From Synechococcus sp. CS-1330 (GTDB lineage: Bacteria > Cyanobacteriota > Cyanobacteriia > PCC-6307 > Cyanobiaceae): a DNA stretch of 38,246 bases. The first letter of the stretch is position 1; each line of letters opens with the position of its first letter. The DNA is taken from the NCBI GenBank assembly GCA_025128025.1, contig JAHLYR010000039.1, positions 1-38,246 of the forward strand, written 5' to 3'. The notes below the pieces were generated by a model that searched no databases, was not told the DNA's origin, and saw only the letters and a list, made by a program, of their open reading frames with translations. A program made the translations under genes and the position numbers. Positions 8,611-38,246 of the stretch are shown here, in pieces.

Positions 8611-10704
8611 TTGAGCCTGCCGCGTCTCCACCCCCGCACGATTGAGGCCGTCAAGGAGCGGGCTGACATCGTTGATGTGGTGGGCGAGCACGTGGTGCTC
8701 AAGAAGAAGGGGCGTGAGTACGTAGGCATCTGTCCCTTCCACGACGACACATCGCCGTCGATGACGGTGTCCCCGGCAAAGCAGTTCTACTACTGCTTCT
8801 CCTGTGGTGCCGGTGGCAATGCCATCAAGTTTTTGATGGAGCACCAGCGTCAGAGCTTCAGCGATGTGGTGCTGGAGCTGGCGCGCAAATACCAGCTGCC
8901 GATCGAGACCCTCGATGGCCCCCAGCAGGAGCGGCTGCGCAAGCAGCTCTCCCGCCGCGAACAGCTGCACCGGGTACTCACCCTGGCGGCTGGTTGGTTC
9001 CGCAGCCAATTGCGCGCCCCTGAGGGAGCGGCCGCTCTCACCTATCTGCGCGAAAGTCGCGGCCTGAGTGAAGCCACCCTGGAAGCCTTCGAGCTCGGCT
9101 TTGCTCCCGACCGTTGGGATGGCCTGCTGAGCCACCTGCAGCAGGTGGAGGGGCTGGGGCCGGAGCTGCTGGAGGAAGCTGGCCTGGTGGTGCCACGCAA
9201 GGGCGCCAGTTCCCAGGACGGCCGTGGTTTCTACGACCGCTTTCGCGGCCGGGTAATGGTGCCGATCAAGGACCGCCAAGGGCGGGTGATTGGTTTCGGT
9301 GGCCGCAGCCTTGATGGCGGCGAGCCCAAGTACCTCAACTCTCCGGAGACTGAGGTGTTCGAGAAGGGCAAGCATCTCTTTGGCCTCGATAAAGCCGCAG
9401 CCGCAATCCGCAAGGACGACCGAGCCGTGGTGGTGGAGGGCTACTTCGACGTGATCGCGCTGCACGCCGCTGGTATCACCAATGCGGTGGCGTCCCTTGG
9501 TACTGCCCTAAGTAGCCAGCAGATCACCCAGCTCTGCCGCTGCTGCGAGGGGCGGCGGATGGTGCTCAACTTCGATAGCGATGGCGCCGGTGTGCGCGCT
9601 GCCCAACGGGCCATCGGTGAAGTGGAGCAGCTGGCCTTGCAGGGCCAGCTGGAGCTGCGGGTGCTGCAGCTGCCCTCCGGCAAGGATCCCGATGAGTTCC
9701 TCAAGAGCCAGGGTGCCGGCGATTACCGGGCCCTGCTTGATCAGGCGCCGCTCTGGCTCGACTGGCAGATCGAGCAGGTGCTCGAGGGCCGAGATCTAGC
9801 CCGTCCCGACCAGTTCCAGCTTGCGGTGACGGCCCTTGTTGCCCTGCTTGGCAAGCTGCCCCAGAGCGCGGTGCGCAGCCACTATCTGCAACGGGTGGCT
9901 GAGCGCCTCAGCGGTGGTCAGGCCCGTCTGGCGATCCAGCTGGAAGACGATCTGCGTCAGCAGGTCAAAGGCCAGCGCTGGCATGGACGTTCCCAGAAGT
10001 GGGAGTTGCCGGGTGAGGCTGGGCTTCGGGAGCGGGCAGAAGCGGAGGTGTTGCGGATGTATCTGCATTGCCCCAACTACCGCAGTGCGATCCGGGTGGA
10101 GTTGCGGCAGCGCGAACTCGACGATTTCGCTCTCAAGCACCACCGCCTGCTTTGGGCTGCGATTAGCGGCCTAGAGGAGGTCAACCTCGGTGTGGGCCGG
10201 CTCGAGGCGATCAACCGAGGCCAAGACCCCGGCTCAGACCTCGCCGATCTTGATTTGCCCCGGTTGCTGGGCGATCAGCTGGTGGTGGAGCAGAGCGCCC
10301 TGCTCTCCAGGCTGACGCCTTTACTTGAGCCTAATGAGTTGCAGCGCATGGCTTTTGGCCAGCCCCTGCTTCAGTTGCGCGGTGCCACGGCATCTCTGGA
10401 GCGCCAGAAGAGCGTCAAGCGCTGCCGGCATCTGCTGGATGCCTGGAGCAGTCAGCGACTTGAGACCCTGGAGCGTTGTATTGCCCTGCTGCTGGAGCAA
10501 GAAAGGGAGGAGGCCCGGGCCACGGCCTCAGGCCTGGCACCGCTGAGCGATATGGAATCGCGCATCGAGGCCCTCTTCAGCGAACTCAACAGCGACGCCC
10601 TGCGCTTTCAGGAGCTCTATTACAACGAACGCAAACATCTCGAACACCTCGACTCCCAGCGCCGCGCTGGCTACGAGGAGGTGATGGCTCAACCGGCGGC
10701 TTAA
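8611..10704 (+). CDS. dnaG: DNA primase
   Basis: Synthesises RNA primers at the replication fork. The 697-aa protein has the N-terminal CHC2 zinc finger (CPFHDDTSPS followed by YYCFSCG, residues about 39-70). The Toprim catalytic core has VVVEGYFDVIALH near residue 275 and LNFDSDGAG near residue 320. A long C-terminal helicase-interaction region closes it. The start is TTG at 8611, giving MSLPRLHPRTIEAVKERADI. It is divergent from the permease gene and followed by a small secreted-protein gene. This is the chromosomal primase, distinct from the accessory primase-helicase at 31.2 kb. Confidence 0.97.
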   Translation: MSLPRLHPRTIEAVKERADIVDVVGEHVVLKKKGREYVGICPFHDDTSPSMTVSPAKQFYYCFSCGAGGNAIKFLMEHQRQSFSDVVLELARKYQLPIETLDGPQQERLRKQLSRREQLHRVLTLAAGWFRSQLRAPEGAAALTYLRESRGLSEATLEAFELGFAPDRWDGLLSHLQQVEGLGPELLEEAGLVVPRKGASSQDGRGFYDRFRGRVMVPIKDRQGRVIGFGGRSLDGGEPKYLNSPETEVFEKGKHLFGLDKAAAAIRKDDRAVVVEGYFDVIALHAAGITNAVASLGTALSSQQITQLCRCCEGRRMVLNFDSDGAGVRAAQRAIGEVEQLALQGQLELRVLQLPSGKDPDEFLKSQGAGDYRALLDQAPLWLDWQIEQVLEGRDLARPDQFQLAVTALVALLGKLPQSAVRSHYLQRVAERLSGGQARLAIQLEDDLRQQVKGQRWHGRSQKWELPGEAGLRERAEAEVLRMYLHCPNYRSAIRVELRQRELDDFALKHHRLLWAAISGLEEVNLGVGRLEAINRGQDPGSDLADLDLPRLLGDQLVVEQSALLSRLTPLLEPNELQRMAFGQPLLQLRGATASLERQKSVKRCRHLLDAWSSQRLETLERCIALLLEQEREEARATASGLAPLSDMESRIEALFSELNSDALRFQELYYNERKHLEHLDSQRRAGYEEVMAQPAA

Positions 10705-30560: not shown

Positions 30561-30815
30561 ATGACCACGACCCGCCTACAAGGCCAGTATGCCGATCCTG
30601 AATTTCAAACCTGGAGCCTGTTGCACGCCCGCGACAACCGCCTCCATGGCGCCGAACTGGCCCAGATAACCCAGCACCACGATCCCAACCCTGCCGGCGA
30701 CGCCCTACATCAGCTCCAGGCCTGGGCCAGGCGCCAGGCCCGCGCAAAGCAACTGCAGGCAAGCGCGATCGCCCACCTGCGCTATTGCCCACCGGCGCCT
30801 GCTCAGGCGTCGTAG
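30561..30815 (+). CDS. small hypothetical protein
   Basis: An 84-aa soluble protein starting at ATG 30561 with GAGGGG eight bases upstream. It is rich in Ala, Gln and His and appears mostly helical (HARDNRLHGAELAQI, then ALHQLQAWARRQARAKQLQA). A HIP1 octamer lies inside the gene. This is the last gene with ordinary core character before the accessory region. No function can be assigned. Confidence 0.65.
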   Translation: MTTTRLQGQYADPEFQTWSLLHARDNRLHGAELAQITQHHDPNPAGDALHQLQAWARRQARAKQLQASAIAHLRYCPPAPAQAS

Positions 30816-31236
30816 TACATCACGGACGTCCTAGGGTCTGGTCTTTTGCCCGGAAAGCATTGGCGTAACTGGGGTTCTTGGGTTTGGGTGGTTCCTGTTT
30901 TGGGGACGTTTTTGGGGACTGTTTTGGGGACCTCCTGGCGCTGCTTGCTTCTGGCAGGTGATTTGCAAGTGGCGGGCTAACTCTGCATCGGTTACGGATT
31001 GGCTGCAGCTCAATCCCGGCCGTCTGCGATCTGACATGACGGGGGTATAGAGCGCCATGACAGATCGACGACGGTCCGGCTCTAGCCCAGATCAATGGGA
31101 ACCAGGCGCCAGCGCTTGCCGGCTGCACGGGTTTCCACCTCCTTGACCGGGGAGAAGCCGATGCTCTTCGCCAGCGACCTCGGAACACTCTCGCGCATTC
31201 GACGCATAGCGAGTGCTGTTCCATAGCTGTCGATCC
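30816..31236. other. 421-bp region without a clear gene, left edge of the accessory region
   Basis: No convincing gene or tRNA. It holds a cluster of three TTTTGGGGAC repeats (30897-30931). On the minus strand there are fragments of protein-like reading frame: a 41-codon frame at 31082-31207 with SIGFSPVKEVE and a Pro/Lys-rich frame ending at 30820. The fragments are in different frames and could be remains of a decayed gene, perhaps an integrase end, but nothing diagnostic is visible. The promoter of the primase-helicase gene should be near 31180-31236. Confidence 0.4.
30897..30931. repeat. three iteron-like GTTTTGGGGAC repeats
   Basis: GTTTTGGGGAC at 30897-30907, GTTTTTGGGGAC at 30908-30919 and GTTTTGGGGAC at 30921-30931 stand in direct orientation, spaced 11 and 13 bp. 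They lie about 300 bp upstream of the primase-helicase gene. Such short direct repeats can be iterons of a replication origin, operator repeats, or a simple low-complexity expansion. The sequence alone does not decide. Confidence 0.6.
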
Positions 31237-33585
31237 ATGAAAACTGAAGACCGCCTCCTGACCTCGGGTAGGGGGAACCCGTGCCCTGTTTGTGGCCGGG
31301 CAACTGATGGCGACTGCCGAATCGGAGTCGACGTCGTCCTCTGTCATAGAGGTAAATCCGCAGCTCCGCCTGAGGGCCTTGCCGTAGGCGAGGTTGTCAA
31401 CGGCTGGGCCTACACCGGGGAAAGCTCCGATGGCCGCTGCTCTGTCTTTACGCGTGACAAAGAACCAGTAGCTCTGAGATTCGGGTCTGCTGTTCACGAT
31501 CGTCTAGGGCATCAGAGCAAACCGACGAAGATTTCGCTGGCCAGGCTCCCCAGGGCAACAGCAGAGCCACCTCCACATCTTCCCGACGGACAGAGCCTGA
31601 CCTATGGGCCTGATCAGTGGGTCGAAGTTGATGGCAAACGCTTCATCCCGCATCACAAGGATGAAGAAGGGCAGGTTCATGGCAACGCAGGCCCAGGGCC
31701 CTGGCCTCTTTACCGACACCAGGATGCGTTCGATCACGCACGTGATCAGTGGGTGGTGGAAATGGAAGGCGAGAAGTGTTGCCGGTGGGTCATGGCGGCA
31801 GGCCGGGTCGGCATCAGTCAGCCGGGTCACAACCACAAGCAGGAGGCCATCACCCGGCGGTATGGAGAGCTGAAGGCTGCTGGTGTGGCAGGTGTGGTCT
31901 ACGTTGCCGACAATGATCAGACCGGTAACAGGAAGGCCCAGAAATGCGCGGCATGTGCAGAGGGGGTGGGCCTGCCCTTCCTCTGGCTACCGGCCATCCG
32001 TATCTGGGGAGATGACCTTCCAATCGGCGGATCGATTGATGATGCCCAGGGGAGCGCTGTAGAGCGCTTCTGTGCCTTGGAGGTGGCCGTCGAAGCCCAC
32101 CTGGAGCTGGATCTAGAGGCACCGGTTGACGACACCGCGCAGGATCTCACCGTGATGCTGGAGCGATGCGCCCAGCGGGTTCTGGAATTGCCCCTGGAGC
32201 ATCGCAGTCACACGCTGAGGGCCATGGCGAAGGACCTCGGAGCTTCGCTAAGCGGCCGCGATGTGGACCGACTCATCGCGTCGGCGCGTTCCCGGCGTGA
32301 CGGGAGAGGTGCGCGCAGGCGCGGTCGCCGGACACTGGAAGTGAAAGCCACACCCTGGCTGTGGGAGGGCCTGCTGATCGGCCAGGCGATCAACATCATG
32401 GGTGCGCTTCCGAAGGTGGGAAAGACATCACTGCTGATCCAGGCCATTGCCGCATGGCATCAGGGAGCCGTGAGCTTTCTCGGTCAACGGTTCATCGGCC
32501 CCTGCCCACCGTTGATCCTCATCGGCACAGACCAGCCTGCCGCTGACTGGGCTCGGATGCTGCAAGGTGCTCAACTGCATGCAGGGGCTGACCCTGATGG
32601 GCTCACGACTCCGGTGCGTGAGATCTGGACGATGGAAGACGGCTTCGTTCTGAACGAAGAGGGCATGGAGATGTGTGGCGATCTCGCCAGGGAGTACCCA
32701 GGGGCCCTCTTCCTGGTTGATTCAGTAGCCGCCGCTGTTACCACCCCGCTGGGCATCCCTGAGGAATCTCCAGAGATCGCGGAACCGTTGCGACGCCTGC
32801 ATGCAGTCGTAGCTCCCCATGGTGGGACCTCTGTGTTTATCGCTCACGCCGGCAAGGGGCGCGCCGGTGACGACCCCATCCGTGCCTTACGCGGGTCGAC
32901 AGCCCTCCCTGCCGTTGCTTCGCAGATCCTGGGGCTGTCAAGACTGTCCGACGCGCCTGGTGATGACCGTTTGATCCTTCTGACCCAGGGCCGAGGTGGG
33001 CACCCGCTGAAGCTGCTGGTGTCACGCGATCACGAAGGAAAGTTCGTAAGTGATGGCGATGCAGCGTCGGTGATCATCAGCCAACGGCTCCAGGAGGCCG
33101 AGAACAGGCTCACTGAAGATCAGACCGATACCTTGCAGCGCCTGCGCAATCGTCATGCAGATGGACTCGACACCTCTGTCGCTGACCTCGCAACAGACAA
33201 CAGCCGCCAGGCTCTGGATCGATCCAGAACTCTTCTCAGAGGCCTGAAGCGTGCTGGCCTGGCGACATCACGCAAGGCGACAACGGCCTCTGGCCAAAGG
33301 GAACTCTGGGAACCATTCGCATTGCCGAGTCAAGGCCTACACCATGACCCTTCAAAACCTTCACTACCTAGTCATACAAAAGGGTGTGAAGGGTTTGAAG
33401 GAAGTGAAGCCCTGCCGGTAGGCCCCCTGTCTGGTGTGATATTTCATCTAATGACCCGTTGTGCAGAGACGTTCCACGAGGCCTCCCCTCAGGAGCTTGC
33501 ATTGTGCTGTGCTGATCAGCATCCAGAATTGCAGAACGAGAACCTTGATGATCTTGTCGCCATTGCTATTCAGATCAGTAAGTGA
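31237..33585 (+). CDS. phage/satellite-type primase-helicase (zinc finger, Toprim, RecA-like AAA)
   Basis: A 782-aa multidomain replication protein, started at ATG 31237 (MKTEDRLLTSGRG). An N-terminal zinc-finger-like motif has CPVCG at residues 16-20 and then GDC and LCH. A Toprim-like primase core has EMEGEKCCRW near residue 174 and VADNDQTGN near 222. A RecA-fold/AAA_25-type helicase has Walker A GALPKVGKTSLL near 387-398 and a Walker B-like ALFLVDSVAAA near 490. A C-terminal winged-helix-like segment (about 630-690) precedes a Pro/Ser linker. This order is typical of mobile-element primases, distinct from chromosomal DnaG. It probably starts replication of the element it sits on. Confidence 0.85.
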   Translation: MKTEDRLLTSGRGNPCPVCGRATDGDCRIGVDVVLCHRGKSAAPPEGLAVGEVVNGWAYTGESSDGRCSVFTRDKEPVALRFGSAVHDRLGHQSKPTKISLARLPRATAEPPPHLPDGQSLTYGPDQWVEVDGKRFIPHHKDEEGQVHGNAGPGPWPLYRHQDAFDHARDQWVVEMEGEKCCRWVMAAGRVGISQPGHNHKQEAITRRYGELKAAGVAGVVYVADNDQTGNRKAQKCAACAEGVGLPFLWLPAIRIWGDDLPIGGSIDDAQGSAVERFCALEVAVEAHLELDLEAPVDDTAQDLTVMLERCAQRVLELPLEHRSHTLRAMAKDLGASLSGRDVDRLIASARSRRDGRGARRRGRRTLEVKATPWLWEGLLIGQAINIMGALPKVGKTSLLIQAIAAWHQGAVSFLGQRFIGPCPPLILIGTDQPAADWARMLQGAQLHAGADPDGLTTPVREIWTMEDGFVLNEEGMEMCGDLAREYPGALFLVDSVAAAVTTPLGIPEESPEIAEPLRRLHAVVAPHGGTSVFIAHAGKGRAGDDPIRALRGSTALPAVASQILGLSRLSDAPGDDRLILLTQGRGGHPLKLLVSRDHEGKFVSDGDAASVIISQRLQEAENRLTEDQTDTLQRLRNRHADGLDTSVADLATDNSRQALDRSRTLLRGLKRAGLATSRKATTASGQRELWEPFALPSQGLHHDPSKPSLPSHTKGCEGFEGSEALPVGPLSGVIFHLMTRCAETFHEASPQELALCCADQHPELQNENLDDLVAIAIQISK
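33349..33401. repeat. 16-bp inverted repeat inside the primase-helicase gene
   Basis: CCTTCAAAACCTTCAC (33349-33364) and GTGAAGGGTTTGAAGG (33386-33401) are complementary at 15 of 16 positions, separated by 21 nt. The arms encode the peptide linker PSKPS and GFEG near the C-terminus of the protein. A stable hairpin of this size within a coding region is unusual and may be a regulatory or replication structure. Confidence 0.75.
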
Positions 33586-33662
33586 GTCACTAGTGGCCTA
33601 GAGAAGGGGCCCTACCTCGGAATACTCATGCGGGTCGACAGCCAACCCTCTGATGCCTTCGG

Positions 33663-33692
33663 AAGCCCTGGGGTCTAAAGATCCTGGGGCTT
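33663..33692 (+). terminator. strong hairpin, probable terminator after the primase-helicase gene
   Basis: AAGCCCTGGGGTCT and AGATCCTGGGGCTT can pair over up to 14 bp, counting G-U pairs, around an AA or a slightly larger loop. It stands 78 bp past the stop of the primase-helicase gene and before the terminase-like gene. The following TTTCGTTGT has only a short T run, so termination efficiency is uncertain. Confidence 0.5.
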
Positions 33693-33834
33693 TCGTTGTA
33701 GTTAAGTTGTGATTGGGCCAGATCTGTCCTCCATAGGACGCCATCCGCGTTCATTGGCGTTCAAATCTGTTCAGCCGCCTCCGTTGAACTGGCGGTGCTT
33801 GGAATCCTGAAGCATCTCTCACGCCCCTGCCGGC

Positions 33835-34338
33835 ATGGAGTTCCACCGCCTGAAAGATGAACCCTCAGCTGACTTTGCTGCTCTCCTGATCCATCGCGAC
33901 ACCGGACCAGGCCGCACTCTCAGCGCCACTGCTCTTCAGGTGGGGCGATCGGAAAGCACGGTCCGTCGGGTGGCGAATCGCTGGAGATGGGCGGATCGTC
34001 TTCAGGCCTTCGACAGCGCTGTGCTCACGCAGGTGGCTGCAACCGGGGCTCACACCGCTGAGATTCGCCATCGCCAGCAGCTCCTGGCCTATCGGGACGA
34101 CCAGCACCGCCGGGCCAAGCAGCTGGCAACCGCTGCTGAACAGCTCATGCAGCTGGTGGTGGAATCAGTGCAAGCCCACCTGGAGGCCGGGACCCTGCTT
34201 CAGCCAGGACAGCTGGGTGCTGCCCTGGGTGCTGCAGCCCGGGCCCTGGAGGCTTCCGGCTCCACGGCTGCAGCAGCCCTGGGCGTCGATGAGCTGATGG
34301 AACAGCTGCTGGGCGACGCCGAGGCAAAGAAAGCCTGA
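33835..34338 (+). CDS. terminase small subunit-like HTH protein
   Basis: A 167-aa protein with an N-terminal helix-turn-helix (LSATALQVGRSESTVRRVAN, about residues 29-48) followed by RWRWADRLQAFD, a pattern seen in phage small terminase subunits. A long coiled-coil-like helix (HRQQLLAYRDDQHRRAKQLA) and an Ala-rich C-terminal region complete it. Small terminases recognise the packaging site and oligomerise through such helices. No large terminase gene is next to it, which is typical of satellites that redirect helper-phage packaging. A role as an ordinary DNA-binding regulator cannot be excluded. Confidence 0.6.
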   Translation: MEFHRLKDEPSADFAALLIHRDTGPGRTLSATALQVGRSESTVRRVANRWRWADRLQAFDSAVLTQVAATGAHTAEIRHRQQLLAYRDDQHRRAKQLATAAEQLMQLVVESVQAHLEAGTLLQPGQLGAALGAAARALEASGSTAAAALGVDELMEQLLGDAEAKKA

Positions 34339-34637
34339 GTTTCGATCGGCCCTGGCCAGACTGCTGGCGGAGTGACTCCGGTCGATCGCCATTCCTATCG
34401 ATCTACGCAACCCCCGCGTGCGGGACTGCTTCGATTCGATGCTGATGTCAGCAGCGGAGACCCTGACACCCCAGCAGCTGGTGAAGTGGCATCACCGGAT
34501 AGAAAACTGCGTCAACCTGGACCAGGCCGCCGAGGTCACCAGCGAGATGTGCGGCCGGCCGATGACGAACTCCTAGAGGCTGATCGCCAGAGAAGTGCGC
34601 AACTCCTGGATCCTGCTGGGCGACAGGCTCGTTACGG
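34339..34637. other. 299-bp region with one possible small ORF
   Basis: Between the terminase-like gene and the next ORF lies a stretch with two competing frames. One (34418-34576) looks protein-like and is entered separately. The other, an 89-codon frame from GTG 34372, is Pro/Arg/Gly-rich and looks like a shadow. No RNA gene or terminator was seen. Confidence 0.4.
34418..34576 (+). CDS. possible 52-aa ORF of the accessory region
   Basis: From GTG 34418 the frame reads VRDCFDSMLMSAAETLTPQQ and continues through LVKWHHRIENC to a stop at 34576. The balanced composition and amphipathic helices suggest a real small protein. The frame is open back to 34376, with the protein-like PIDLRNPR upstream, so the true start may be a rare codon such as ATT 34391. 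No good ribosome binding site was found and no function is known. Confidence 0.35.
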   Translation: MRDCFDSMLMSAAETLTPQQLVKWHHRIENCVNLDQAAEVTSEMCGRPMTNS

Positions 34638-34886
34638 GTGAAGAGCGAAAAGCACGATCTAAGTAAAGTGAAGAAGTGGGGTGCGTATGTGGGGAAAGAA
34701 ATGATTGGAAGTGAAGCCATGGGCCGGATCACCTGCCAGGTACTGGCGGGTAGCAAGCCTCCGGCCAACGAAACAGCGGAAGAGCGGGAGTTCCGCGAGG
34801 AAACGGAACAGTGGCTGGTGCGGATGCGCCGCGATGCTGAGCTGCGCGGCCTGAACCTGGTGGTGGAAATCCCCAGCGAATGGTGA
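34638..34886 (+). CDS. small hypothetical protein of the accessory region
   Basis: An 82-aa charged protein from GTG 34638 (MKSEKHDLSKVKKWG). The N-terminal third is basic and the middle acidic (NETAEEREFREETEQWLVRM), and the whole is probably helical. It has no membrane segment and no known family. It precedes the small membrane-protein ORF by about 20 bp. The surrounding genes point to a mobile element, but the role is unknown. Confidence 0.5.
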   Translation: MKSEKHDLSKVKKWGAYVGKEMIGSEAMGRITCQVLAGSKPPANETAEEREFREETEQWLVRMRRDAELRGLNLVVEIPSEW

Positions 34887-34908
34887 TCGGCTGTGGCTGG
34901 GCATCGGT

Positions 34909-35175
34909 GTGGCGATCGGCCTTGCTCTCTGGCCGCTGTTGTTGCCGCTTGTGTTGTTGATCGCTCTAGTGGCTGTCTTGCGGCACGGAGCGCGATCCGG
35001 CCAGAGGCCCCCCCGCCGGCAGCATCAAGCGAACTCCTCGCCACAACCGCAGCCGAGCTCAGCGGCAACGGTTCTGGATCCACTGGTTCGCGCCAAGGTC
35101 TTGGCCCAGGTAGAGCGGATCAACACCGAAGTGCACCGAGAGAGACTGGAGCGCAGCTTCAGCGAACACTCCTAG
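34909..35175 (+). CDS. small membrane-anchored hypothetical protein
   Basis: An 88-aa protein from GTG 34909. A strong membrane helix (LALWPLLLPLVLLIALVAVL) is followed by a basic Pro/Gln/Ser-rich linker and a C-terminal helix (VRAKVLAQVERINTEVHRER). A single-span protein with a cytoplasmic coiled-coil tail is suggested. The frame is open to about 34885, so a non-ATG start slightly upstream is possible. No known family. Confidence 0.5.
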   Translation: MAIGLALWPLLLPLVLLIALVAVLRHGARSGQRPPRRQHQANSSPQPQPSSAATVLDPLVRAKVLAQVERINTEVHRERLERSFSEHS

Positions 35176-35176
35176 C

Positions 35177-35836
35177 CTGAAGTTCCGCTTTGCCTTCCTG
35201 CTGATCACACCCCGCTACGGCAACGCTCTGGCCTGGGCTGATGCGCTGCATCGTGATCAGCGGCGCAAAGGCAAACCGGTGCCCTACATCTCCCACCTGA
35301 TCGCTGTCAGTGGCCTGGTGTGGGAGGACGGAGGCACAGAGGATCAGGCGATCGCTGGCCTGCTGCACGACGCGATCGAAGACGCCGGCCAGAGCCATAG
35401 CTCAATCGCTGAGCGTTTCGGGATCCCCGTGGCCGACATCGTGCGTGACTGCACTGATACCAGCCAGGAGGCACCAGCAGGAGAAAAGGAGCCGTGGCTG
35501 CTGCGCAAGACCCGCTACCTCAAAGCCCTGGCACACAAGCCCGAGACCTCCCTACATGTGACAGCGGCCGATAAGGCCCGCAACGCCCGCGACATGGTGC
35601 TTGATGCCTGCCGCGATCCGGAGATGTGGGTGAAATTCAATGCCGGGTTGGAGGGCTCAGCCTGGTATCTGCTGCGGATGCATCAGCAGCTCAGCCATCG
35701 CCTGCCCCAGAGCCGCTCCACCGAACTGCTGGGGGAAGCGGTGCGCGAGATCTTGGCCAGTGCGCCTTTCCAGCGGATCGCGCCCGAGGGTATGGCTGCA
35801 GCCGTGTGGGTAGCCAGCCATGACGTGCGGCAGTAA
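35177..35836 (+). CDS. HD-domain phosphohydrolase-like protein, unusual start
   Basis: The HD-type metal-binding pattern is clear: PYISH near residue 40 and LLHDAIED at 62-69, followed by VSAADK-like TAADKARNARDM, as in HD_4/RelA-SpoT-related hydrolases that act on nucleotides. Sequence similar to the family (ALAWADALHRDQRRKGK) is encoded upstream of the first conventional start, GTG 35279. No ATG, GTG or TTG exists further up in this frame. The gene is therefore drawn from CTG 35177, giving 219 aa, just behind the preceding stop. A CTG start, coupling, or a lost start codon are all possible. The substrate is unknown. Confidence 0.7.
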   Translation: MKFRFAFLLITPRYGNALAWADALHRDQRRKGKPVPYISHLIAVSGLVWEDGGTEDQAIAGLLHDAIEDAGQSHSSIAERFGIPVADIVRDCTDTSQEAPAGEKEPWLLRKTRYLKALAHKPETSLHVTAADKARNARDMVLDACRDPEMWVKFNAGLEGSAWYLLRMHQQLSHRLPQSRSTELLGEAVREILASAPFQRIAPEGMAAAVWVASHDVRQ

Positions 35837-36097: not shown

Positions 36098-37750
36098 TTG
36101 ACTGGGCCGACTGATTACGGGCAATACAATTTATTTGAAAATGTTCTTCCGTCTTCTCTGGGGCTGGAAGAAGCCGGAAAAAAACTGGGAGTCTCGACAG
36201 CAACAATACGTAATTGGCTGAAAACTGGCTATCTCAAGTCAGCGGGTAGGGGGAGGTTTGAGATTCAGTCTTTAGCAGGCTTTCAGGCTGATATTCTTGG
36301 AAAGGCAAAGTTGACTCAGCGCGCAAATAAGTCTTTAAAAGATTCGCACAACCACAACGAATTGCAAGAGTATATCATCAATGAATGCTTGCAGGGAGAG
36401 CGCTGTGTTGACAAATTAGCGCAGGAATATGAGGAGGCTCTTTCGAATGCTTACCGGAACAAAGAAGGTGTCTATTACACTCCGGTGGATGTGGCATCTG
36501 ATCTCTTAAGATCGTCACTTCTGGCTAATCAGATGTCAACTTTCTGCGATCCTTGTTGTGGGTCGGGAAATTTTGTAATTCGCGCGCTTGACTTGGGGAT
36601 TCGGCCGGAAAATATATATGCTTATGACGTCGATCCAGTGGCTGTTGAGTTGACCAAATCAAGGCTCTATCGAAGAACAGGATTTGAGAGTCCAAATATT
36701 AGATCGTTAGACTTCCTGGAGTATGCATTAAATGCGCCATTGATGTTCGATTGCATATTCACTAACCCTCCTTGGGGAAAGAAGATTTCACGTGAAACTC
36801 GGATGTCTTTAGGTGAAAAGTATGGCGCTGGCTCTAGTATTGATACATGCGCTCTTTTCTTTTTTGCTTGTTTAAAGTGTCTGAATAACGATGGAACCCT
36901 TGGCTTGCTTCTGCCGGAAGCGTTCTTCAATATTGCAGCTTTTGAGGACGCCCGCAAAAAAGCTTTATCGTTGTCAATTATTAGGCTTATCGAATACGGA
37001 CGCGTGTTCAATGGACTCTTGACTAAGGCACAGGGAATTGTTATTGAGAAAAAATCAGCAGAGAAGACTAGTGTCATCGAGTGCTGCAATGCCGAGATCG
37101 CATTTATTCGGGATAAGAAATCATTTGAATCCAACCCAAAATCCATCTTAAATCTTAATTGTGATGAGCACGATTCAGAGATTCTTTCTTATTTATTTTC
37201 ATTGCCGCACGTCACTCTTGAAGAGCAGGCCGACTGGGGATTGGGAATCGTAACAGGCAACAATAAGAAGTTCATAAGAAACAAGAATGACGATAACTGT
37301 ATTCCTGTCTTCAGGGGCTCTGATTTGATTGAAGGGATTTTCAGAAAGCCGTCCAACTTTATACCAAAAGACCTAAGCCTCTATCAACAAGTCGCCCCAG
37401 TCACTCTTTATCTTGCGAAAAAGAAGCTAATATACAAATTTATCTCTTCAAAGCTCTCATTTGCTTACGATGATCAGCAAAGATATGTTCTCAATAGTGC
37501 AAATATTGTTATACCACATGACACTTTCCCTGTCCCAATGAAGTTGATGGCTCAGCTACTGAACAGTGACTTTATGAACTGGATCTTCAATAGGGTCTTC
37601 TGTACCCATAAGGTGCTTCGCAAGGATATTGAGCGATTGCCAATCTATAGCCAAAAGCTTGAAAACATGGTAGAGTTCGATGAGGAGGCTTATCTAGACA
37701 GTCTCTCTCTTGTCAAGATTAAAGATGGAACTTATCGAATTAAAAGATAA
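36098..37750 (+). CDS. type II N6-adenine DNA methyltransferase with N-terminal HTH
   Basis: A 550-aa modification enzyme. Residues about 20-65 form a MerR/excisionase-like helix-turn-helix (LGVSTATIRNWLKTGYLKSA). The methyltransferase core follows: YYTP near 125, the SAM motif DPCCGSGNF at 151-159, and the catalytic NPPW at 223-226, as in gamma-class TaqI/Eco57I-like adenine methylases. The C-terminal half should hold the target-recognition domain. TTG 36098 is supported by GAGGGG nine bases upstream. Codon use is A/T-rich, unlike the core genes, indicating transfer. It overlaps the endonuclease gene by 26 bp. Confidence 0.88.
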   Translation: MTGPTDYGQYNLFENVLPSSLGLEEAGKKLGVSTATIRNWLKTGYLKSAGRGRFEIQSLAGFQADILGKAKLTQRANKSLKDSHNHNELQEYIINECLQGERCVDKLAQEYEEALSNAYRNKEGVYYTPVDVASDLLRSSLLANQMSTFCDPCCGSGNFVIRALDLGIRPENIYAYDVDPVAVELTKSRLYRRTGFESPNIRSLDFLEYALNAPLMFDCIFTNPPWGKKISRETRMSLGEKYGAGSSIDTCALFFFACLKCLNNDGTLGLLLPEAFFNIAAFEDARKKALSLSIIRLIEYGRVFNGLLTKAQGIVIEKKSAEKTSVIECCNAEIAFIRDKKSFESNPKSILNLNCDEHDSEILSYLFSLPHVTLEEQADWGLGIVTGNNKKFIRNKNDDNCIPVFRGSDLIEGIFRKPSNFIPKDLSLYQQVAPVTLYLAKKKLIYKFISSKLSFAYDDQQRYVLNSANIVIPHDTFPVPMKLMAQLLNSDFMNWIFNRVFCTHKVLRKDIERLPIYSQKLENMVEFDEEAYLDSLSLVKIKDGTYRIKR

Positions 37751-38207
37751 AATTGTCTCGGAGTTCGTTGGTTCTGAGGCCGATTTACTAGATGTCCTTG
37801 CCCTAGTTGATCAGGATCAATCCGTTTTCCCTTTTAATGAGTACGAACATCTTGTGTGTTCCCTGATGAGCAAGGGAGGCTTGAGCTATGCTCAGTATCT
37901 AGATATAAGGACGCAGTACATCAATGAGAATCCAAATCTCTGGATCTTTGAGATCTCGGCTCCTCGCGGATTTGGAGAAAAATTTGCGCAGACATATGTT
38001 CAAGGAAAGTGCTCAAAGCTTAAGAAGCCTTCGAAAGTGCTACACCCTGAGTACGTGGGTGAATACGATCTTTGGCTTGATGGAATTACTATTGAGGTAA
38101 AGGCATCTAGGGAGACTCTGGAAAACCGAGGCCGTTTGCGGGACAATAACCCTGTGATCGCAGGCCAGGACTGGGTTGATGGGCGGCAAGCAGCTTGGCT
38201 TCTCTGA
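37725..38207 (+). pseudogene. type II restriction endonuclease, interrupted by an IS5-family element
   Basis: Starts at ATG 37725 inside the end of the methyltransferase gene, the usual arrangement of a type II system. The native part runs to 38110 (128 full codons) and contains a PD-(D/E)XK-like core: GEYDLWLDG with Asp115, then ITIEVKAS with Glu124 and Lys126. At that point a CTAG site is followed by IS5-type terminal sequence, and the frame continues into the element for about 32 foreign codons to a stop at 38207. The remaining C-terminal part of the gene would lie beyond the element, outside this window. Endonuclease activity is probably lost. I do not recognise the specificity. Confidence 0.75.
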
Positions 38208-38246
38208 TTACGAGCTCACCACAGCCAAGAAGCAGACCAAACGGGA
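38111..38246 (+). mobile_element. left end of an IS5-family insertion sequence (runs off the window)
   Basis: GGAGACTCTGGAAAACC at 38111-38127 follows directly after CTAG (38107-38110), a YTAR target as used by the IS5 group. It matches 14 of 17 positions of the MITE end GGAGGGTCTGGATAACC. The transposase start codon is 68 bp inside, the spacing usual for IS5. The right end and the second CTAG copy would be outside the window. Confidence 0.75.
38179..38246 (+). CDS. IS5-family transposase, N-terminal fragment
   Basis: The first 22 codons (MGGKQLGFSDYELTTAKKQT and on) match the typical N-terminus of IS5-group DDE transposases, which read similarly to the QLTFADSEF-type start of IS5 itself. 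The frame is open at the window edge. The enzyme would catalyse cut-and-paste movement of this element, and possibly of the MITE at 11405, whose ends it could recognise. Confidence 0.8.
   Translation, partial: MGGKQLGFSDYELTTAKKQTKR

Follow-up and report, generated by a model that had tools for sequence, protein, structure and literature searches.

The DNA analysed here, referred to as the window, is the entire contig C56 (38,246 bases) of the Synechococcus sp. CS-1330 genome (G000), which comprises 2.5 Mb in 72 contigs. Its right part is probably an integrated phage-satellite-type element located in the 3' end of glnA. The island starts at position 30803, inside the 3' end of this gene, and continues beyond position 35836 to the contig end at 38246. 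A preliminary description of positions 31237 to 35836 had proposed a satellite-like element on the basis of its gene content. This proposal is supported by the presence of attachment (att) ends, an integrase, a replication-type protein and a small terminase subunit (TerS), and by the lack of structural genes in the assembled parts.

The left boundary was defined by alignment with three close relatives. The alignment of the genomes G005, G004 and G012 with the window (93.4-96.8% DNA identity) stops at 30823-30827. Beyond this point they contain an uninterrupted glnA, i.e. an empty site, of which the encoded protein ends in HPHEFVMYYDA (YYAA in G012). In the window the att core (30803..30824, minus strand) consists of the 3'-terminal 22 bp of glnA, which the integration left in place. 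The intact glnA of G000 is found on contig C19, where an identical copy of these 22 bp (G000:C19:136471-136492) completes the gene. In the relatives the core, as read by eye, differs from that of the window by 0 (G005) to 2 bases. No att pair was detected between 28000 and 38246 of the window, because the right end of the island is on another contig. The window was scanned for Rfam families and tRNAs without a match, and likewise no tRNA was found on the C19 region (L066). Immediately 3' of the C19 glnA a tyrosine integrase is encoded in two parts (L066:6538-7503 and 8705-9502). The transposase open reading frames (ORFs) between them (PF13808 in the one scanned) indicate that the gene was split by an insertion sequence. 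The C-terminal part has a Phage_integrase match (E 2e-4) under the Pfam cut-off and shares 77% identity with the intact enzyme of genome G642. By eye it has kept what we take to be the arginine (TGTRIQE), the HxxR motif (HSWRET) and the tyrosine (QYTS) of such enzymes. The integrase is followed by a small serine recombinase (L066:9562-10416, PF00239 E 8e-34). The integrase, the att repeat and the presence/absence of the element in related strains, which the preliminary description had suggested looking for, were therefore all found at glnA, and the anatomy of the locus establishes integration at this gene.

The catalytic part of the integrase matched 15 of 400 genomes of the same family, G000 included, and seven of the other 14 were fetched. 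All five strong homologues (E 1e-30 or better; G642, G626, G538, G548 and G007) are encoded directly downstream of glnA, the locus in G007 being cut by a contig end. In G642 an intact integrase of 599 amino acids (aa) lies, on a single contig, in an element that is bounded by the identical 22-bp core, with 17,101 bp between the copies. This sister island carries a different replication protein and a large terminase of 639 aa (phrog_38 E 7e-39), which is 21-24% identical to the S-CRES, S-CBS2 and P-SS2 terminases. A relative of the replication protein of the window adjoins the integrase in G548 (E 9e-61; phrog_30286 E 2e-95). The TerS profile described below did not match the G642 island (L183, G642:C1:1452001-1472000, 11.5-17 kb), in which several short ORFs share a repeated leader-like sequence that by eye is presumably of the Nif11 type. 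Two weak relatives of the integrase, in G587 (L192) and G330 (L193), occupy other chromosomal places, each near small serine recombinases.

The first gene of the island (31213..33585, with an ATG at 31237; plus strand, as are all further window genes given here) encodes the replication protein of 790 aa. It matches AAA_25 (E 4e-10) and phrog_30286 (E 4e-76), and it is 38.5% identical to the S-CBS1 protein and 32.6% identical to the S-CBS3 protein annotated as RepA helicase, with about half of the query covered. A CPxC..C..H cluster and the motifs EGEK and DNDQTG can be read from the sequence. The first is presumably zinc-finger-like and the latter two Toprim-like. Pfam gave neither a Toprim nor a zinc-finger match. 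The earlier assignment as a zinc finger/Toprim/RecA-like protein is thus borne out by Pfam for the ATPase, the two other parts standing as motifs seen by eye.

The 167-aa protein encoded at 33835..34338 is, judged by its sequence, a TerS of the cyanosiphovirus type. It matches phrog_6299 with residues 4-165 (E 6e-14). When 50,697 phage records were searched by tblastn at E <= 0.01, only the S-CBS2 terS (two records) was matched, at E 1e-4. This gene is situated directly upstream of terL, and the genes upstream of TerL in S-CRES1, S-CRES3 and P-SS2 are also homologous to the 167-aa protein. Identity amounts to 31% over 135 aa with the first gene of P-SS2 and to 26% over 148 aa with the S-CBS2 TerS. 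P-SS2, S-CBS2 and S-CRES1/3 are full phages with structural genes; their TerS is homologous to that of the island but lies beside TerL. In a set of 79 sequences the TerS profile found the cyanosiphovirus TerS at E 3e-22 to 2e-16, and the best unrelated ORF at E 0.4. The LG(V/I) of a C-terminal A-x-x-LG(V/I) motif is kept in 20 of 20 aligned island and phage TerS, as expected if contact with TerL has been retained. The N-terminus contains a generic helix-turn-helix (HTH) below the Pfam cut-offs. In the AlphaFold model (pLDDT 82, pTM 0.43) a short HTH is followed by two long helices, and a Foldseek search of viral models retrieved two phage models with TM scores of 0.84 and 0.80 by query length. 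No PDB sequence was matched by the TerS profile at E up to 1. The structural check proposed in the preliminary description was uninformative as far as solved structures are concerned, and the identification stands by way of the cyanosiphovirus TerS encoded beside TerL.

The small terminase, the small ORFs and the HD-domain hydrolase of the preliminary description are all present (phrog_6299, HD_4), and its claim that capsid, portal, tail and large terminase genes are lacking was confirmed for the ORFs scanned on C56 and on the C19 part. Pfam and PHROG scans of the eight proteins encoded between 31213 and 38204, in which matches up to E 1 were accepted, yielded none to a capsid, portal, tail or large-terminase family, and the best lysis-type match was a spanin at chance level (E 0.34). 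The description had also named a complete set of structural genes just beyond the window as a finding that would refute it. None was found on C19, and the gap between the contigs falls within a single restriction gene. On C56 the interrupted N-terminal part of a Type II restriction endonuclease (37725..38110) corresponds to positions 8-133 of 244 of PADLOC PDLC03414 (E 7.5e-66). On C19 a 30-residue frame by the repeat (L066:10588-10677, minus strand) corresponds to positions 218-242 of the same model (E 3e-5) and is the C-terminal end. From these matches the C56 and C19 ends seem to represent opposite ends of a single restriction gene hit by insertion sequences. Therefore a hidden structural module is unlikely, a composite insertion being still conceivable. 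The C56 part ends within an insertion sequence present in many copies, of which it contains the left end (38111..38246). This element is presumably IS5-like and has 139 bp in common with three copies compared. A 77-bp probe from it was found at 19 places in G000, and nine of these 19 matches begin at base 1 of a contig, i.e. the element helps to break the assembly. The C19 end falls in a second, different repeat that is common to five contig ends. The assembled island measures 7,444 + 4,348 = 11,792 bp plus the gap, and an estimated ~10.6 kb after removal of the later insertion sequences. With its integrase split and its restriction gene broken by insertion sequences, the G000 copy is probably stranded and immobile unless helped in trans.

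The distribution of TerS was studied with a six-sequence profile in the 400 genomes. The family occurs in 24 of them, G000 included, with 31 matches. Eleven of these (fragments or weak, E above 1e-29) were set aside, which left 20 substantial copies. Within 1.4 kb of 17 of the 20 a large gene was present, of replication type in 12 and of no known family in five. The replication-type neighbours are a DUF3854-type protein or relative in nine loci (with a weak Toprim match), an AEP-TOTE-like primase in two (E 3e-4, below the cut-off) and the RepA-like type of the window in one. The neighbour in the other five is a protein of 986-1,032 aa; Pfam gave no match for the two that were scanned, and the 989-aa one had no phage match at E 1e-5. 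These proteins had been considered as replication proteins. This was dropped, as there was no Pfam or phage match and their role is a guess from position. The satellite reading requires that TerS be accompanied by replication genes of at least two types; three types remain, and our confidence in it is unchanged.

The islands carrying TerS differ in site and cargo. The order large serine recombinase-replication gene-TerS-small serine recombinase is common to G414a, G281, G591a, G648 and G642a, three of the five TerS being identical. In the first four mutY is the next gene; in G642a mutY was not seen. A DUF4336 gene is the neighbour of an integrase in G601, G414b and G580 (regions L141-L148, which also comprise that of G591b), and some TerS islands are near tRNA genes. 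When nine other TerS islands were searched for exact direct repeats in their surroundings, the sole convincing candidate was a 17-bp repeat in G601, which is situated in the 5' part of the DUF4336 gene; G591b has a 5' fragment of this gene. Some islands carry cargo genes of the copper-resistance type (multicopper oxidase, DUF411, MerR); such cargo was seen in the mutY-side islands L130 (G414:C2) and L091 (metagenome-assembled genome CPC316). From the TerS loci 95 ORFs were chosen by hand, most of them from a list of 232 ORFs and some from the C19 and ORF tables, with genes judged to be of the host left out. In a PHROG scan at E 1e-5 all 14 TerS among them matched phrog_6299 and several ORFs matched integrases or invertases. 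No terL, portal, head or tail label occurred among the matches listed (25 families, 13 of them unlabelled). On shared contigs, to which the distances refer, no phrog_2 (<1e-18) or phrog_38 match was found within 80 kb of TerS, the nearest being ~81 kb away (G580); other phrog_2 and phrog_38 matches are on separate contigs. Close to the TerS of G466 an 873-aa ORF contains one phrog_2 match at background level (E 4e-4). TerS was not found in plasmids at E 1e-5. In a tree of 20 rows a supported branch (97/92) separates the island TerS from the four phage TerS, the rows of the latter being flagged for long branches. The nearest to the window TerS is that of G563 (64% identity), of which the neighbouring gene is of another kind. 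These data are compatible with a broader proposal, which we put forward tentatively and at slightly less than even weight. It holds that a wide class of picocyanobacterial satellites is held together by the cyanosiphovirus-type TerS, with replication protein, recombinase, site and cargo being swapped. TerS would then be a portable address label that makes the islands cargo of P-SS2/S-CBS2-like siphoviruses, the sister glnA island having a large terminase instead.

Replication and the redirection of packaging we infer from the replication protein and TerS. When a helper phage infects the cell or is induced, the island would be excised by the integrase as a circle, which would be amplified by the replication protein. 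The N-terminal HTH of TerS could then bind a site in the island DNA and its conserved C-terminal end, with the LGV motif, could engage the large terminase of the helper. The island DNA would fill helper heads and integrate at glnA of the next cell. Because the island TerS is akin to theirs, a siphovirus resembling P-SS2 or S-CBS2 is the likely helper. A second candidate is a prophage-like region on contig C11 of G000 itself (L209-L210, ~70-87 kb), which encodes a TerL (phrog_38 E 2e-74), a portal (E 7e-18), a scaffold (E 2e-13) and a primase. A phrog_2 search had suggested that G000 is devoid of a prophage terminase, which was overturned by this phrog_38 match. The island TerS profile did not match 50 kb of C11. 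In G004, a genome of the same genus, a locus near tRNA-Pro (L026, G004:C5:113001-133000) combines a primase partly related to the replication protein of the window with a large terminase. It also contains a gene that by eye resembles the C11 portal, and is likely a prophage.

A number of results weigh against the interpretation of the island as a satellite. The integrase is split in G000, and this copy may not move. Between C56 and C19 an insertion sequence and ~84 codons of the restriction enzyme are unread. Among the other glnA islands only that of G642 has the att core at both ends; G007 has an exact core and G626 one with 3 mismatches, in both cases at the glnA side alone, and none was found in G538 and G548 at up to 3 mismatches. 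Three of the 20 TerS loci lack the large gene, i.e. G666 (at a contig edge), G607 and G624 (where TerS contains stops), and in five further loci the neighbour has no known family. Among solved structures the TerS model retrieved long-helix and generic HTH matches only, and no solved TerS. A helper, a pac site or a capsid-size gene was not identified. Finally, TerS or replication proteins were used in six scans of IMG/VR viral contigs, none of which revealed an island relative; the only matches, on two phage contigs, were partial relatives of TerS (33% over 67 residues). The element has accordingly not been encountered in virion DNA, where the preliminary description had advised looking for it. 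This absence is weak evidence, because the scans reach mostly close relatives.

Two other explanations were weighed. The island could be what is left of a prophage whose structural genes have disappeared, in which case TerS and the replication gene would have survived by chance. The insertion sequences that erode the island, the resemblance of the replication protein to those of the siphoviruses S-CBS1 and S-CBS3 and, in part, to that of the prophage-like locus in G004, and the TerL in the sister glnA island are in agreement with such an origin. However, the island has retained its two att ends and the modules expected in a small integrative element, and the sequence stops in one gene that continues on C19. 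In addition, the pairing of TerS with a large gene, either replication-type or unknown, recurs in combination with several integrases and sites, and the gene order around TerS is common to the five islands named above. A remnant is therefore unlikely. Still less probable is a cargo or defence island in which a TerS-like protein has been co-opted as a DNA-binding regulator and packaging is uninvolved: the generic HTH below the cut-offs, the lack of packaging evidence, and the restriction-modification genes here and copper-resistance-type genes in some relatives would suit it, but the homology spans the C-terminal half with LG(V/I) kept in all 20 aligned TerS, and TerS is associated with replication-type genes.

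The remaining genes of the window part follow TerS. Two small ORFs of 52 aa (34418..34576) and 82 aa (34638..34886) belong to no family, and a third of 88 aa with a hydrophobic N-terminus (34909..35175) has chance-level matches only. An HD_4 hydrolase (35279..35836, PF13328 E 2e-12) is regarded as cargo; its frame is open upstream of the first GTG, up to 35180, with no ATG, GTG or TTG start there. It is followed by a Type II DNA methyltransferase of the N6-adenine type (36098..37750; PF02384, PF12950; PADLOC PDLC03356 E 9e-186), the N-terminus of which is HTH_17/MerR-like below the cut-offs. No Stl/Rpr, AlpA or MerR-type regulator gene was recognised in the island, no gene set of phage-inducible chromosomal islands (PICIs) having been compared.

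PICIs, such as the Staphylococcus aureus pathogenicity islands (SaPIs), are described in PMC6092414 as compact integrated islands with their own integrase and replication protein, in some of them a TerS homologue, accessory genes, and no structural genes. The glnA island resembles terS-carrying PICIs in its site-specific integration with an integrase, its replication module, TerS and accessory genes, and in that no structural genes were found. It differs from them in that no Stl/AlpA-type regulator or capsid-redirection gene was recognised, in its restriction-modification cargo and in its cyanobacterial host. PICIs are typically ~15 kb in size, as against 11.8 kb assembled plus the gap, or the estimated ~10.6 kb, for the island.

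Hackl and colleagues reportedly described, in 2023, the tycheposons of Prochlorococcus as integrative islands with variable cargo, some of them being viral satellites. Tycheposons integrate at tRNA genes and carry a deep-branching tyrosine recombinase. The glnA island is likewise a picocyanobacterial integrative island with variable cargo. Unlike tycheposons, it lies not at a tRNA gene but in glnA, and relatives lie beside mutY or a DUF4336 gene, some TerS islands nevertheless being near tRNA genes. Tycheposons are named as a proposed satellite family in PMC11389934 and placed at tRNA genes in PMC10872708. The former, a review, already cites phage satellites in cyanobacteria, so that a satellite in a cyanobacterium is not in itself new.

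According to an excerpt of PMC10187409, a further picocyanobacterial element belongs to variable islands whose cargo includes restriction-modification genes, and its tyrosine integrase frequently has a small serine recombinase as its neighbour. It is typically found next to tRNA-Phe or tRNA-Cys, and this excerpt mentions neither TerS nor a satellite role. The glnA island shares with it the small serine recombinase near the integrase (L066:9562-10416) and the restriction-modification cargo, and is set apart, on the description in that excerpt, by the lack of an adjacent tRNA-Phe or tRNA-Cys in the window and L066. PICMI of the Vibrionaceae is a small marine satellite at fis in which, in the portion of PMC10803314 available, no terS homologue was identified. 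As far as that portion goes, PICMI and the island have integration at a protein gene in common and differ in that it takes place at fis without terS in the former and at glnA with terS here. What are new are the glnA site and the TerS family. A glnA-integrated or TerS-defined picocyanobacterial satellite family was not met in the literature search, most subscription papers being outside it, which makes this a weak claim.

How picocyanobacterial islands pass between cells is an open question. The match between the TerS of the islands and that of cyanosiphoviruses names a testable helper group and a mechanism. TerS also links the mobility of the islands to defence and copper-resistance-type cargo. 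The sites at glnA, mutY and the DUF4336 gene are insertion sites in protein genes, which are added to reports that have centred on tRNA genes.

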